Of a stretch of DNA of 30,316 nt, positions 2,808 through 26,621 are shown one piece after another. Location of the stretch: IMG/VR virus record IMGVR_UViG_3300033153_006025, positions 1 through 30,316 of that record. One strand, 5' to 3'. This DNA comes from a virus. The translations under genes and the position numbers were made by a program. The notes below the pieces were generated by a model, which searched no databases, had not been told where the DNA came from, and saw only the letters and a program-made list of their open reading frames with translations. Numbering within the stretch: the first letter of the stretch is position 1; every line of letters begins with the position of its first letter.

Positions 2808-3299
2808 TTATGAGAAATCATATTTAAAATATGCTCTAATATATACTTCTGCACCATTTGAAACAAGCGCATTAGTAAACTGTACGCTACATTTTAACCC
2901 TTGAGTCGCTGAAATTGCAGTGCTTAACCCTGTCACCTTATAATATGCATCATCTAATCCGGTTTCAGCCTTAACCATATGAGTGTGCATTACTACTCTA
3001 CCATACGTTTCAATTGCGTAATTACCGTTGGCTGCATCTGCTCTAAATCTTACCGTACACGTAGCGCCTGTATTAATATCCCAATTGCCCATACATTCCT
3101 CGTCAACACCTAAGGTAAAGCCAACTAGTGTTTTAGCATAGGGCTCGACTAAATGTTCCGGCGTTCCTGCCGATCCATCATGCATGCAAGCACACCATTG
3201 CTCTGCTGTCGATGATGGAATGTTAACACGTCTAAACATAATCATTGTGTATCTATCAAATAGCGGAGAACCGCTCTGTGTTAAATCTTGTGTAGCCAT
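2808..3299 (-). CDS. Putative virion/fibre-associated protein (163 aa)
   Basis: No family recognised with confidence. The protein is beta-rich, with alternating polar and hydrophobic strands (for example CTVRFRADAANGNYAIETYG and YYKVTGLSTAISATQGL), and no membrane spans. Three cysteines near residues 36-69 (CACMHDG, EECMGNW) could coordinate a metal or form a disulfide, although cytoplasmic assembly makes disulfides less likely. It directly follows the 1202-aa fibre gene in the same operon, 11 bp away, with AAGGAAAAAAATT as its ribosome-binding site. That position is typical for a fibre-tip, cap or assembly factor, which is the best inference. Confidence 0.7.
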   Translation of the reverse strand: MATQDLTQSGSPLFDRYTMIMFRRVNIPSSTAEQWCACMHDGSAGTPEHLVEPYAKTLVGFTLGVDEECMGNWDINTGATCTVRFRADAANGNYAIETYGRVVMHTHMVKAETGLDDAYYKVTGLSTAISATQGLKCSVQFTNALVSNGAEVYIRAYFKYDFS

Positions 3300-3310
3300 A
3301 ATTTTTTTCC

Positions 3311-6300
3311 TTATGCGTCTGCTATAATTGTAATCGTACCTGATGACCCTCTATATTTAAGCTTTCCGCTTTCAACATATAGAATTCCACCACCACTTGG
3401 ATTTGAACTAGGAACCGTCGTAGCATTTGCTATAAACATTACCTGTTTACCATCGCCATAACTCTTTCCACCAAAGCCAATGTTACCTTCAGCGGTAGCT
3501 TGAAACATTATTTGACCATTAGAATAATCTTCGTCAGTAGGCCAGCTCTCAGTTCCAATAACGGTAAATGAATCCTCACCACCATTTCCTTGAATTCCAA
3601 CGACGTAATGTAAATTTTCTGGTCCTTGTACCAAACTTCCAGATGTAGAGCTATCTAAAAATGCGTTAATGTCTGTATCAGATACATCAAAGCCTCTTGT
3701 AGAAAAGCTCACAGCGACAGCACCATCCGTCATTGCAGAAAAAACAAGCTCGGATGTTTCATGCGAAGGAGTAACCGATCTAGTAATCGCACTTATTTCT
3801 CCGATCTGTTCGTTATTACCACTAGATGTTTCTTGAACAAATTCCATGGCTAATCCAATACCAGCAACTGGAGTTCCGCTTGTTAAATGATATAACTTTT
3901 GAACAGTATGTGGAGTATTTGTTAACGCAGTTGTTGTTTCAACATAAGCGTTACCAGTGGTTAGCTCTATCTTAGCATCGTTAGCTCCAAGTGGTTTTAT
4001 CGTAACATCACCAGTATTACTTTTAATCTGTCCATTAACGGCTAACGCACTTGTCACAATAAGATTAGAAAATGTAGGTGTGACACTTGTTAAGTTAGAA
4101 TGTTGCGCGTATGTAAAATGATAATATTCATCTGTAATACCGCCTTGCAACAAACTTAATGCATTATGACTTTCTGTCGATGCAAGCGATGTAAATATAA
4201 TATCATCTACACCAATATTGATGCTATTGTTTGTACATTTGAAAGTTTTATTATCATAGGTTGACCCTTGTGTAATAGGAACTGTTGCATCAACAAGCTC
4301 TACACCTGTGTTTGCGTCATCAGCCCTTGTCCAGGAGCTAGAACTTGAAACATAAATACCATTTTCTTTTTGGTCTGATTGCTGCCACACTAAAACTCTA
4401 TCAGATGAAGTTAATGTTCCATCGATGGTCTGCTCTCCTGACAAAGTAATATCACCAGTTGTCGCAATAATACATGAGCTTTTCCATTGCGTACCTTGAA
4501 ACAATGCATCCACATAATCTTTTCGAGTTAGATGGTCATCTAGTGTAGGGGATGTTCCGGAAGTAATAATTTGTGGTGCATACAATCTACCCGTGCTATC
4601 AATATCTAGCCTAGATACATAAGATGAACCATTCCAGTAATCAATACTGAAATCATTATTTCCTAACTTACTGACAGCCCATACTGCATTTTCACCAGGA
4701 GAAACCGGATCACCATCATAGAGTTCATATCTACCGATAGCCCCCTTTAAAGGCATGATCGCAATCGACTCTTCTTGGCTAGCATTACCAAAAACAACCC
4801 TCGGTTTTTTTGCAACATCTGGCGTAGTTGGAAAGGCCACTGGCTTTAATGGAAAACCGCTATATCCATTTCCACTAGCATCCATCACCACCGATGACAT
4901 ATCCCACTCATTATTAGTGTTATCATAACTCGCCATTGTAGAAGCGCTATCAATATCTTTATAAATATCGCTTTTAACTACACCCGTTCCCATCTTGATG
5001 GAATCACCGGAATTCGTCGGCGTAAGATCAGTACCGGTTCTTGTAAACATTCCATTTGCTGTATGAACATCAACATAAGTTTTAACTGCTTTTTCAGTCA
5101 GTCCTGCTGTATCTGAATTACCTGCCAATGTTCCATCAGTTGAAAACTCATCAATCGTCGCACCTGTTCCTGTTGTTAATGAATTGATTGTTTGAGTAGC
5201 TGTCCATGTATTTGCATTAGTTAAGTCAATGCCTAGAACATCTCCACTCGTTCCAAGACCAGTTAATGTAGCATCTGTATATACAGATGATAGATAATTA
5301 CCAGCAGCTGACTGTGATTGAGAAGATTTAGTTCCAGTCAAATCATAAATGGAAATAAGACTCCAATTTCCGCCGATATATCTTACTGTGATCTTTGAAG
5401 TAAATACAACCTCAGGCGTTAATCCCGTCAACGGGCCAAATGTTATATCGTTAATTGTCTCGCCCGCAGCGCCAACAACTGTTCCGAATACATTTTGTCC
5501 TTGAACCCAAACATATCTAAACTTCTGACTTGTTGCATCAGCAGCTACAGGAACAGCAGCTAGCCAAATGTTCATATAATCACCATTTGGTAGCACAGTT
5601 TGCTGCCAAGAACCGCCTGTAAACTCATTATAATAAGGGCGTGAACCACTCAGCGGAACAATATCTGTTCCAGTTGTAATAATGTTGATATCAGGCGATG
5701 CCCCTGATAAATAAAATTGACTATAAGTTCCTACAGGCAAAGCTGTAATTGTCGATGGTAAGTCCTCATCATAAATAAGCCCTGAACTGATAGATGGTCG
5801 TCGATCAGCTGCTGTTGTTGAGCTAAGCGTATAATCACCAAGCACTGCGCCACTTTCCCTATACGTTCCAAGCGTGTGATGCAACTCACGATGAGTTTGC
5901 CAAGGCATCATGCCATGACATTCTCTCTGATAAATCCATACAGCATCTGTTGGGTTGTAATAAGTAATTGCTATTAAAAGATAACCATAAAACTCATCTT
6001 CATCAACAGTTGATGTCGCTACCCATGAAGTAGTCGATCCATCATAAATTAAAAAATAAGCTTTTGATGTATCGGTACCATGAGCAGGAGATGTCCAACC
6101 AGAAGTCAAAGCAACAACCGGATAAGCTTGATAATAAGCATTAACAGTTCCGGTCAGTGTGACTGTTCTTGTTGTTGAATCACCAGTGATAATAACATCT
6201 TCCGGATGTGTAAATCCTGTAGGTTCTCTCGATACATCAATCAGCATTTGAGTTTTATCTGATTTAATGTTTACAACGAGGCTGCCTTCACTTGCATGTG

Positions 6301-19546: not shown

Positions 19547-20137
19547 TTAAACAGTTGGTGTTAGTACTTGAAAGTATATTTTATGATCAGTTGAAGGATC
19601 AGCACTGAATGTGACCACAATTTCATCTGTTCCCGATGCAGCAATAAGAACTGTCTGAGGTGACGATCCTTGCTGATGCATTTGAACGAACACACGATCA
19701 GTTGCAGTTACGCCAGTCACACTGATAGTTTCAGCGGCTGCGCCACCTAACGTTGTGTGCATGCCTGAATGCTTAACAACATATGCAGGTCTAGCAATTT
19801 CAGCTAACTTAACTAAGGTAACCGCACCGTCAGCCAATTTTGCTGTTGAAATAGAACCATCAGCAACATCAGAGTTAGGGAACTCAGCAACAGTTACAGC
19901 AGTAGTTACTGCATCAAAATATACTTTGTCCTTGCCATCTGAACCTTCAAGCTCAACAACATCACCAACTTTTACTTTACCATACCCGTTTACTAACTCT
20001 TCCATCAGGTCATTAAAATAAGCTGATGTTTTAATAGTAGCCAACGTATCTGAGCTATTTTTATAGCCATAGTTAATGAAACAATTCTCATTACCAGACG
20101 ATGTAATTCTCGCCCATCCGTTTAAATCAAAAGTCAT
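19547..20137 (-). CDS. Head decoration/head-fibre-like protein (196 aa)
   Basis: Directly downstream of the major capsid gene, where podoviruses and marine phages often encode a head fibre or decoration protein. Residues 1-75 form a compact domain (YGYKNSSDTLATIKTSAYFN; VGDVVELEGSDGKDKVYF), probably the capsid-binding part. Residues about 90-112 have the collagen- or coil-like repeat pattern DGSISTAKLADGAVTLVKLA, known from phage head fibre linkers. The last 80 residues are beta-rich (VFVQMHQQGSSPQTVLIAAS; DHKIYFQVL) and would project outward. AAGGAGAAAAAG precedes the ATG. The decoration role is inferred from position and this three-part layout. Confidence 0.8.
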   Translation of the reverse strand: MTFDLNGWARITSSGNENCFINYGYKNSSDTLATIKTSAYFNDLMEELVNGYGKVKVGDVVELEGSDGKDKVYFDAVTTAVTVAEFPNSDVADGSISTAKLADGAVTLVKLAEIARPAYVVKHSGMHTTLGGAAAETISVTGVTATDRVFVQMHQQGSSPQTVLIAASGTDEIVVTFSADPSTDHKIYFQVLTPTV

Positions 20138-21001: not shown

Positions 21002-21082
21002 ATAGATACCTCATCTAAAAAGTTAAAAAAACAAAATCCAGTTTGCTTTTGGTTTAACTTCTTTAAACAAGGCAACCCGTAA

Positions 21083-21120
21083 GGGTCGTTAGCTCATAAG
21101 ACGGAAGGACGCTCGGCTAT
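21083..21120 (+). other. tRNA-like 5' fragment, plus strand
   Basis: GGGTCGTTAGCTCATAAGAC followed by GGAAGGACGCTCGGCT has the spacing of a tRNA acceptor strand, T8-A9 and D-arm (TAGCTCA...GG). No matching anticodon stem, T arm or 3' acceptor strand can be built, so it is at most a tRNA remnant or a tRNA-like part of the capsid mRNA leader (this segment is transcribed in antisense from the capsid promoter). Confidence 0.25.
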
Positions 21121-21125
21121 GTACA

Positions 21126-21154
21126 AATATAAACCTATGTGTTCATAATTGCAA
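21126..21154 (-). promoter_or_regulatory. Sigma70 promoter for the major capsid gene
   Basis: On the minus strand, TTGCAA (21154-21149), a 17-bp spacer, and TATATT (21131-21126): four of six and five of six matches to the -35 and -10 boxes with ideal spacing. Transcription would start near 21119 and give a leader of about 118 nt before the capsid ATG, with small hairpins such as AACCCGTAAGGGT. It lies downstream of a strong terminator, as expected for a dedicated capsid promoter. Confidence 0.6.
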
Positions 21155-21161
21155 CAGTATT

Positions 21162-21200
21162 AGGTAAAAACTAGCAATTGCCAGGTAAAAACTAGCAATT
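21162..21200. repeat. Two direct 18-bp repeats, 21-bp period
   Basis: AGGTAAAAACTAGCAATT occurs at 21162-21179 and again, identical, at 21183-21200. The 21-bp period places both copies on the same face of the helix, and they lie just upstream of the capsid promoter on the minus strand. This is the geometry of an activator or repressor site, or of a small duplication. Confidence 0.85.
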
Positions 21201-21207
21201 AGTTTAT

Positions 21208-21255
21208 CGTCGCAGAGACCCTGTCGGGGTTCTACCAGACTGAGCTACCCCAGCC
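21208..21255 (-). other. tRNA-like 5' half, minus strand
   Basis: The minus strand reads GGCTGGGGTAGCTCAGTCTG followed by GTAGAAC, which matches the tRNA acceptor 5' strand, TA, GCTCAG D-arm and GGTA D-loop very well. The next bases fold as a CCC...GGG hairpin, not as a standard anticodon arm, and no T loop or 3' acceptor strand follows within 90 bases. It is best read as a tRNA remnant or mimic. It begins directly after the T run of the terminator at 21256-21294. Confidence 0.4.
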
Positions 21256-21294
21256 AAAAAAAAACCCCCCGGGGATAGGGAATATCTCGGGGGG
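21256..21294 (-). terminator. Strong intrinsic terminator after scaffold gene
   Basis: On the minus strand CCCCCC pairs with GGGGGG, with an inner GATA/TATC helix around the loop TTCCC, and the stem is followed directly by nine T residues (A run 21256-21264). This should end or strongly reduce transcription coming from the portal and scaffold genes before the capsid gene. The plus strand lacks a T run after the stem, so it is directional. Confidence 0.85.
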
Positions 21295-21372
21295 TCGTAC
21301 TAACAACAAACACTTCCATCCTGGAAGATAAGAGATGGAACAAAAATAAAAAAACCCATCTCGAGATCTATA

Positions 21373-22170
21373 TTACTGCTGTCCCATTGCTTCTGCAATC
21401 TTTTTCTCAAAGTCAGCTGCTTTCTCATGATTCTTTGAGAAATTCTCACCAGAATATAAGTTATTTGTATAATATTTCATCAACTCTTTAAAGCTGTTCT
21501 TATTCTCAGACGCTGCATACTCAGAATCAGGCGGAGTCGTAGATGCTGCACCAACATGATTGCCTTTCATCTCACTAAGAAGTTGCATCACATCTACGTT
21601 TGGATGCTCTAACAAATCTCCAACCATAGCAGCTGACTTATCACTAAGGTTATTTGCTGCCCAATTGTTCAAATTAACTACAGTTTCTTTGTAATTAGGC
21701 CCAAGCTCTTTTAAGTCGTCGTCATGAGACTTTTGCTGTCCAACTAACTCATCTCGATACATGGTCATAAGTTGAGTAGCGAACTCTTGAGAGATATGAT
21801 TCGTCTTAAACATCTCAAGAGCGTTCTTATGCTCCGTAGATTCTTTATCGAACTCAATGCCTTCGATATCTGAAAAATCATATTCTTCGGGTGAACCAGT
21901 GAATGCACCTAGTCTATTCCGATATTCCCCCATTTTTTTCTCGGCTTCTTCGTACGATTTGACGAGTCCTTCTGGGTTTTTGAATTTCTCCGGTAACCAG
22001 CCCGGTCTTTCAGCCTCGCTAGCATCTTCTTCAGGTGTGTTAATAGGAATGCCACTAACCCGACCAGTTTCATCATTACCAATTGTAAGTGTATTATTAT
22101 CTTCATTGACATGTATGTCCTCTGCTGGAATATTATTAACTAAATTATCTACTGCTTCTTGATCAGACAT
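21373..22170 (-). CDS. Scaffold/capsid assembly protein (265 aa)
   Basis: Guides prohead assembly and leaves before packaging. It has the acidic N terminus and the marker RPGWLPEKFKNPEGLVKSYE with EAEKKMGEYRNRLGA, which is typical of T7 gp9-like scaffolds, followed by a helical, charged body and a C-terminal coiled coil (NFSKNHEKAADFEKKIAEAM) that usually binds the capsid protein. Length compares with T7 gp9 (307 aa). I chose ATG 22170 over ATG 22176 because GGAG lies eight bases before the former and only two before the latter. It overlaps the end of the Bbp19-like gene by eight bases, and a strong terminator follows the gene. Confidence 0.9.
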   Translation of the reverse strand: MSDQEAVDNLVNNIPAEDIHVNEDNNTLTIGNDETGRVSGIPINTPEEDASEAERPGWLPEKFKNPEGLVKSYEEAEKKMGEYRNRLGAFTGSPEEYDFSDIEGIEFDKESTEHKNALEMFKTNHISQEFATQLMTMYRDELVGQQKSHDDDLKELGPNYKETVVNLNNWAANNLSDKSAAMVGDLLEHPNVDVMQLLSEMKGNHVGAASTTPPDSEYAASENKNSFKELMKYYTNNLYSGENFSKNHEKAADFEKKIAEAMGQQ

Positions 22171-22468
22171 TATCATCTCTCCTCATTAGACTTTGTTCAT
22201 AAAATTTTAAAGCATCCTCAATCCATTGGATTACGTTTGCTTGTCCTGCTCTAAATCCCGAGTAAATTGAAATGTCTCCACCGAAGCTTTGAATCATCTC
22301 TGGATTGATCGGGAAAACAGGTGCACTTTTAAATAGCTCATTAGCTTTCTCTAAAAATATCTTTCCGTCTTCTGATATAAAAAACAATCTGTGTATTAAT
22401 GCTAAAAAGCTTTTCTGCTCATCATTAACACTATCGTCTGCTACTGAGTAACCCTCTTCTTCTGACAT
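22163..22468 (-). CDS. Bbp19-like small phage protein (101 aa)
   Basis: A short helical protein between portal and scaffold. Residues 18-45 form a helix (QKSFLALIHRLFFISEDGKI) and the second half has SIYSGFRAGQANVIQWIEDA, resembling the conserved part of Bbp19-like proteins of podoviruses, where a helix with a glycine-arginine turn and NV..WI follows. The function of that family is not established; its fixed place next to the portal gene suggests a head or packaging-vertex role. GAGGATAGTAT precedes the ATG. The family call is from pattern and position and could be wrong. Confidence 0.65.
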   Translation of the reverse strand: MSEEEGYSVADDSVNDEQKSFLALIHRLFFISEDGKIFLEKANELFKSAPVFPINPEMIQSFGGDISIYSGFRAGQANVIQWIEDALKFYEQSLMRRDDNV

Positions 22469-26406: not shown

Positions 26407-26592
26407 ATGAATTACACAACAAAGTGTCCATATTGCGATAAGCCACTATCTGATGATTTCATACAAAAGCAAGGTGGTAGAATATTAGGCAGTAAAAGTA
26501 CATTAACATCTGAAGAAGCGCGCGAGTTAGCTAAAAAGAGATGGGATAAAGCTAGAGAGAAGAATAAAGATAAAGATAAAGAGTCCACTTAA
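26407..26592 (+). CDS. Small zinc-ribbon protein with basic helix (61 aa)
   Basis: The N-terminal CPYCDKPL is one half of a zinc knuckle; no second cysteine pair is present, so metal binding would need a dimer or would be lost. The second half, LTSEEARELAKKRWDKAREK, is a basic helix of the kind seen in small phage DNA-binding proteins, and the end is a K/D/E repeat encoded by AAAGAT units. AAGGAATAAA precedes the ATG. Its stop codon lies in the loop of the terminator hairpin 26582-26601. It is second in a two-gene early operon; function unknown. Confidence 0.75.
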   Translation: MNYTTKCPYCDKPLSDDFIQKQGGRILGSKSTLTSEEARELAKKRWDKAREKNKDKDKEST

Positions 26593-26601
26593 TCGTGGAC
26601 T
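26582..26601. terminator. Bidirectional terminator between convergent operons
   Basis: AGTCCAC and GTGGACT form a perfect 7-bp stem with loop TTAATC. On the plus strand TTAATTATTTAATTTT follows, on the minus strand CTTTATCTTTATCTTT, both T-rich. It separates the rightward early pair from the leftward mini-gene operon. Confidence 0.65.
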
Positions 26602-26621
26602 TAATTATTTAATTTTAAACG

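Follow-up and report, generated by a model that had tools for sequence, protein, structure and literature searches.

The gap between the scaffold-position and capsid genes of this virus appears to hold an insulated, host-transcribed capsid unit following the logic of T7 gene 10, with a leader RNA that would protect the messenger and gate its translation (rough probability of this reading, 0.55). Most relatives carry a covarying, structured capsid leader RNA of about 105-120 nt, which comes in two types, A and B. The DNA analysed, hereafter the window, is the virus record of a podovirus, 30,316 bases in length. The record seems incomplete; an ORF at positions 1-1287, terminase-like by eye and without a Pfam match, exits its left end. 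Within the proposed unit, a terminator would stop transcription arriving from the scaffold side and a host sigma70-type promoter would start a new capsid messenger at about position 21119. The leader of that messenger would be folded nearly throughout, comprising a 5'-end hairpin, a second hairpin and a long A/U-rich hairpin burying the Shine-Dalgarno sequence. The capsid messenger would be made separately, with its 5' end protected and its translation gated by the third hairpin. All genes under discussion lie on the minus strand, and the features of the region are listed here in transcription order.

21373..22176, minus strand: scaffold-position ORF, assigned by position
21332..21362, minus strand: hairpin with GAGATGG/CCATCTC arms and a U-rich loop, directly after the scaffold-position stop codon
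21313..21327, minus strand: small hairpin CTTCCAGGATGGAAG
21256..21294, minus strand: intrinsic terminator, C6/G6 stem and nine T residues
about 21207..21255, minus strand: tRNA-like 5' half resembling a D arm, ahead of the predicted transcript start
21183..21200, minus strand: distal copy of an 18-bp repeat, A5 tract at -68 to -72
21162..21179, minus strand: proximal copy of the 18-bp repeat, A5 tract at -47 to -51
21149..21154, minus strand: -35 element TTGCAA
21126..21131, minus strand: -10 element TATATT, 17-nt spacer
21002..21119, minus strand: leader of the capsid mRNA, running from the predicted +1 (21119) up to the start codon
20156..21001, minus strand: major capsid protein gene, phrog_3437
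19547..20137, minus strand: second capsid-module gene, 196 aa
19504..19528, minus strand: 8-bp hairpin with no T run, ahead of the tail gene, in a gap that is folded in relatives

The scaffold-position ORF has no match in PHROG or Pfam. The capsid protein of the window resembles those of Methylophilales phage MEP301 (43%) and Dunaliella viridis virus SI2 (38%), and compares at about 32-34% with those of Vibrio phages and pelagiphage Hodr. The set of relatives comprises 197 sequences with the capsid gene, reduced to 85 non-redundant loci. Contig L001, with a capsid identity of 60%, is the only close relative of the window that was found.

Two elements that the first-pass annotation had placed at the upstream end of the gap are there to the letter, namely the GAGATGG/CCATCTC pair (arms at 21356-21362 and 21332-21338, also listed as a hairpin by the terminator script) and the C6/G6 terminator with nine T residues at 21256-21294. 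Terminator-like sites between 19000 and 24000 of the window number 11 versus 3.4 expected, and seven of the 11, some of them overlapping, fall in the scaffold-capsid gap. The layout is conserved: 59 of 83 non-redundant loci, window included, have a terminator at -400 to -120 from the capsid start (2.8 expected), with control counts of 1/78 in the stretch upstream and 5/77 inside the capsid gene. A called terminator is missing in 24 of the 83 loci, L001 among these. Elsewhere in the window, a hairpin GTCCAC...GTGGAC at about 26583-26602 has a terminator-like listing on both strands.

The promoter TTGCAA-17-TATATT stands between the scaffold-position and capsid genes. It had been described as a good sigma70 promoter; the letters are present, but strength above chance is not borne out by the scan alone, in which promoter-like sites in this part of the window are not in excess (17 versus 13.2 expected, sd 3.5). 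As the window promoter on its own is not above chance, its support comes from the homologous position in relatives. There 54 of 82 loci have their best sigma70-type -10 box at -160 to -141, while 28 have it outside this main peak; the window -10, at -130 from the capsid start, is also outside the peak. The best promoter score is more than 1 sd above the locus's own shuffles in just 43 of these 82 loci, a count made without the Vibrio and Hodr records and without loci whose upstream sequence is short.

No single-subunit RNA polymerase (PF00940) was found in 20 relatives' records, in MEP301 or in the window (itself incomplete), by a search that was positive in the T7 control. In the available part of the MEP301 report, no such polymerase is identified (PMC8024684). 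At the downstream end of the unit, a strict terminator call occurs at +1050 to +1350 in 28 of 77 loci versus 5.6 expected, and a fold with z below -2 is seen in the gap ahead of the tail gene in 26 of the 27 loci, out of 85, whose tail gene start could be placed by a sequence pattern. Given the upstream terminators, the -10 peak, the folded tail-side gap and the lack of a recognised single-subunit polymerase, transcription of the capsid unit by the host polymerase has good support across the group of relatives. The same four observations favour the separate, host-polymerase capsid expression proposed earlier, while the further suggestion that this expression is high fares less well, as a predicted buried Shine-Dalgarno sequence speaks against simply high output. 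The contrast drawn with T7 was overstated. T7 likewise has a separate promoter (phi10) before its capsid gene and the terminator Tphi before the tail gene, which is the same layout; the difference is that the T7 promoter is a phage one, read by T7's own polymerase (which has a Pfam match) into a 63-nt leader, whereas the window has a host-type promoter.

The evidence for the leader RNA of relatives comes from two alignments. In figures favoured by the derivation of each structure from the same alignment that was scored, 95.2% of cells are paired in type A (alignment A1, 57 rows, 26 pairs, with L028 and L031 left out) versus 22-43% when slid, and 92.9% in type B (alignment A5, from the second capsid group, 15 rows, 27 pairs) versus 25-51% when slid. 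Both-side changes are seen in 16 of the 26 type A pairs, and none of 500 shuffles equals any measure; double changes are seen in 14 of the 27 type B pairs. In both types the first hairpin, P1, and the last, P4, share a 4x1 internal loop (NNNA-CC versus GG-C) in mirrored orientation, and the middle of the leader between them is variable. By a twin-module definition drawn from the very leaders counted, P1 and P4 modules are both found in the expected order in 25 of 25 type B leaders (L297 and L298 left out) and in 52 of 77 type A leaders, compared with 0.8% and 0.5% of shuffles; type A counts are made without the Vibrio records, Hodr, SI2, L082, L083, L001 and the window. A loose P1 finder, which matches 16-28% of shuffles, was never used alone. 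Short type B leaders (L230, L231, L238, L243, L244, L252 and L294), with little besides P1 and P4, represent a natural minimal version. In L258 and other type B leaders the minimum-energy fold pairs the GGCC boxes together, replacing P1/P4; covariation favours P1 and P4 as the probable pairing over this GGCC-GGCC helix, which may possibly be a switch or a dimer contact.

The leader is tied to the capsid gene. In a DNA-pattern scan that did not use the capsid gene, all 106 testable matches, of at least 117 leader matches, precede a capsid gene, the remaining 11 ending too early at contig ends. These matches, which exclude 61 of 178 pattern matches lying in capsid-protein-retrieved loci, represent 88 distinct surroundings, with 23 of the matches identical to capsid-retrieved ones. 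Model R1 (type A) gave one strong match each in 19 of 23 records searched whole, four of the 19 holding an extra weak match (E 0.06-0.66), and no match in L001 and three records of the type B group. The two types recognise each other weakly by covariance model. R2 (type B), run on ten type A loci, matched one leader (MEP301, E 0.26) and gave a further match (E 0.68) that falls outside the leader; R1 recognised 2 of the 26 loci in the second capsid group, both with type A-like leaders.

At gathering score, Rfam 15 has no match in the window and only RF02932, in L009, among 39 relatives' loci (19 including L009, where the match lies away from the leader, and 20 with none). At permissive thresholds, Rfam families searched in the gap and in two relatives' leaders gave sub-gathering, chance-like matches only and were set aside. 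The L009 match (Betaproteobacteria-1 RNA, 95 bits) occupies 3179-3301, between scaffold and capsid leader, and is followed by an ORF at 3364-3822 that is HNH-like by eye; together these look like an inserted RNA-plus-nuclease element. MEP301, a cultured phage, carries a type A leader. By BLAST against 50,697 phage records, a MEP301-like leader is found in MEP301 itself only, and queries with two other leaders gave none over the leader part among the matches listed. This scarcity in phage records may explain why no account of the capsid leader RNA turned up among the listed papers of the PMC open subset.

Leaders of relatives appear to begin in a helix. In type A, 72 of 77 loci have a -10-like box close to P1, at a distance to the P1 GG with quartiles of 8, 8 and 9 nt, figures that arise partly by construction as the box was sought near P1 and the nearest one taken. 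With a box 8-9 nt from the P1 GG, transcription should start at the first paired P1 bases. Counted from the predicted +1, 52 of 74 leaders have at least two of their initial four nucleotides in pairs (SI2, Vibrio, Hodr, L082 and L083 left out), versus 214 of 592 shifted starts. In type B a recognisable -35 is present in 13 of 27 leaders and, assuming a 17-nt spacer, 12 of these 13 have the P1 loop 11-14 nt past the -10, which puts the P1 stem near the presumptive +1. Paired 5' ends shield E. coli messengers against 5'-end-dependent decay.

The last element named by the first-pass annotation was the promoter, and the leader downstream of it was overlooked. The following hairpins are predicted in the leader of the window.

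21090..21119, minus strand: 5'-terminal hairpin H1, UAGC...GCUA (in L001, AUCU...AGAU)
21073..21088, minus strand: hairpin H2, CGACCC UUAC GGGUUG
21009..21072, minus strand: long hairpin H3, z -3.5
21069..21095, minus strand: alternative P1-like hairpin with a CUAA/C internal loop

The leader at 21005-21119 folds with a z of -3.6 versus shuffles. H1 is predicted to pair from nucleotide 1 in both the window and L001, which in the window requires a +1 placed 6 or 7 nt past the -10; adding 30 coding nucleotides to the fold opens the lowest pairs of H1. H3 is predicted to pair CCUU (21069-21072) with the Shine-Dalgarno GAGG (21009-21012), and the pairing probability of the GAGG is about 1 in both the window and L001. 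The L001 counterpart of H3 is even stronger (z -6.3) and is predicted to bury the L001 Shine-Dalgarno. Two other readings of the start region were rejected. An A/U-rich leader stretch open to ribosomes was ruled out, this stretch being predicted paired. T7 gene-10-like letters score 34.0, a value reached by 10 of 500 shuffles, and the score is read as A/U richness since other window starts score 35.0 and 33.5 and eight relatives score higher.

We infer that the window leader corresponds to the leader RNA of relatives, possibly as a diverged family member at the homologous place. R1 gives no match in the window at E<=10 with filters; unfiltered in the gap, it reaches E 1.4 on the right strand and has its best match on the other. 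Unfiltered R2 matches 21024-21095 of the minus strand at E 0.04 in the gap, and at rank 2 with E 0.76 over the window. On the L001 leader R2 reaches E 0.0087, yet it has no match in the whole L001 record with filters. The strict NNNA-CC/GG-C twin modules are absent from both the window and L001. Criteria for a CNNA/C hairpin select two sites in the window, one of them at 21092 in the P1-like hairpin, detect 27 of 63 relatives' leaders and miss L001. A pattern made from the window/L001 leader found 11 loci, two of them before a capsid gene, these two being the L001 contig and a second contig with identical sequence.

The P1-like hairpin uses letters that H1 (GCUA) and H3 (CUU) also need. Its formation would therefore exclude the base of each and, by removing the strand that covers the Shine-Dalgarno, uncover it; it could be the open state. 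The window/L001 leader, in its two sequences, is thus a possible two-state switch. As a family-wide trait, burial of the Shine-Dalgarno was rejected: in type A leaders its pairing is 0.68 versus 0.69 with shuffled upstream sequence. Since type A is no more paired than shuffles, burial appears to be a trait of the window's lineage, and translational gating is proposed for the window and L001 only.

As the leader of relatives is a conserved structured RNA, it probably binds a factor as well. Its conservation exceeds what a plain stabiliser needs, which makes a host protein, the capsid protein or, in the manner of put, RNA polymerase candidate binders. A wider reading, tentative at best, takes the leaders as one large and as yet unlisted capsid-leader RNA family, in podoviruses without an RNA polymerase, whose mirrored 4x1 modules, flanking a variable middle and beginning at nucleotide 1, would bind a conserved factor (host polymerase, ribosomal protein or capsid protein) and set capsid output; the window and L001 would be a diverged switch, in which CCUU (CCUC in L001) pairs either with an upstream GAG, forming the P1-like hairpin, or with the Shine-Dalgarno GAGG. 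Somewhat less probable, and rather unlikely on present evidence, is a protein-binding operator through which capsid translation would be tuned, either by the capsid protein itself or by a host protein of the RNA-binding or ribosomal kind. The association of the leader with the capsid gene (106/106 testable of at least 117 pattern matches), the mirrored module present twice per leader (25/25 type B, 52/77 type A) and the predicted burial of the Shine-Dalgarno in the window and L001 are consistent with an operator; however, the 39 relatives' loci have no Rfam family at gathering score, save the unrelated RNA in L009, and the window is without the strict modules.

The two 18-bp repeats are identical, 21 bp apart and just upstream of the -35, as described earlier, and are beyond chance: allowing 3 mismatches, the window holds no further match, and shuffles give an expectation of 0.14. 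Their conservation in relatives had been named as a check, and within 3 mismatches they occur in 0 of 298 other loci, some of which do not span the gap. A binding protein had been suggested from their spacing but finds no support; given their A5 tracts, phased A-tracts or an UP-like element explain the repeats equally well. Two perfect copies at this place could be the binding site of an activator, which is nevertheless improbable: the other loci lack the repeats, the gap of L001 is merely about 166 nt, and one tandem duplication with phased A-tracts accounts for them.

Another unlikely reading, judged a little less probable still, is put-like antitermination, by analogy with phage HK022, in which the leader would bind the host polymerase and let it traverse a long late operon. 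As far as the consulted part of the source describes it, HK022 putL lies just downstream of its promoter, is about 70 nt long with two stem-loops and functions without dedicated protein factors (PMC9378689). The leader of relatives is also 5'-terminal and has a two-hairpin core, in phages without a recognised RNA polymerase, and on that partial account both are stem-loop RNAs beside a host-polymerase promoter. On the same account, put serves early operons, whereas the leader found here precedes the capsid gene and gives a single strong match per genome; moreover, no strong coding-strand terminator is called downstream of the capsid start in the late genes of MEP301.

The tRNA-like 5' half, upstream of the predicted transcript, has the D-arm-like letters ascribed to it, but no tRNA is called there (ARAGORN 0; Rfam without a tRNA match at E<=10; no complete cloverleaf) and relatives are without a counterpart (0 of 298 other loci, some not spanning the gap). 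Stretches of 19-22 nt around the D arm match phage records at E 0.3-4, overlying an annotated tRNA in 4 of the best 15 of 49 records; the 25-nt core has zero exact matches in IMG/VR, and the element has no E. coli match. That it is the remnant of an attachment site is very improbable, for although its D-arm-like part matches tRNAs and direct repeats adjoin it, the element is a 5' half, the matches (E 0.3-4) are not significant, no tRNA gene is called, and an integrase domain is absent from 20 window ORFs by Pfam, such a gene possibly lying outside the incomplete record.

Returning to the insulated, host-transcribed unit, several known systems resemble its parts. The T7 phi10 RNA begins with an 8-bp hairpin at nucleotide 1, and the window leader is likewise predicted to be hairpin-first. 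The upstream terminator of the window and the roughly 105-120 nt leader kept by relatives both differ from T7, and the predicted buried Shine-Dalgarno of the window is a difference from T7 gene 10. The ompA leader is a 5'-terminal stem-loop stabiliser of its mRNA, and the capsid messenger is similarly predicted to begin in a helix; relatives, however, conserve much loop sequence that a mere ompA-type stabiliser would not need. In leaders that sequester the Shine-Dalgarno, the ribosome-binding site pairs with an upstream strand and an alternative hairpin takes the same strand, a pairing that the predicted folds of the window and L001 share, known here from two sequences. The C-loop motif, in the portion of its description at hand (PMC8570644), resembles the module in having an asymmetric internal loop in a hairpin, a resemblance only; the 4x1 loop NNNA/C of capsid leaders differs from the motif there described.

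The arrangement illustrates a way in which phages that have no recognised RNA polymerase could still make a separate transcript for the capsid gene, a solution convergent with that of T7. It also brings to light a structured RNA family before phage capsid genes that is unlisted in Rfam 15, and the cultured phage MEP301, with its type A leader, makes this leader RNA testable.
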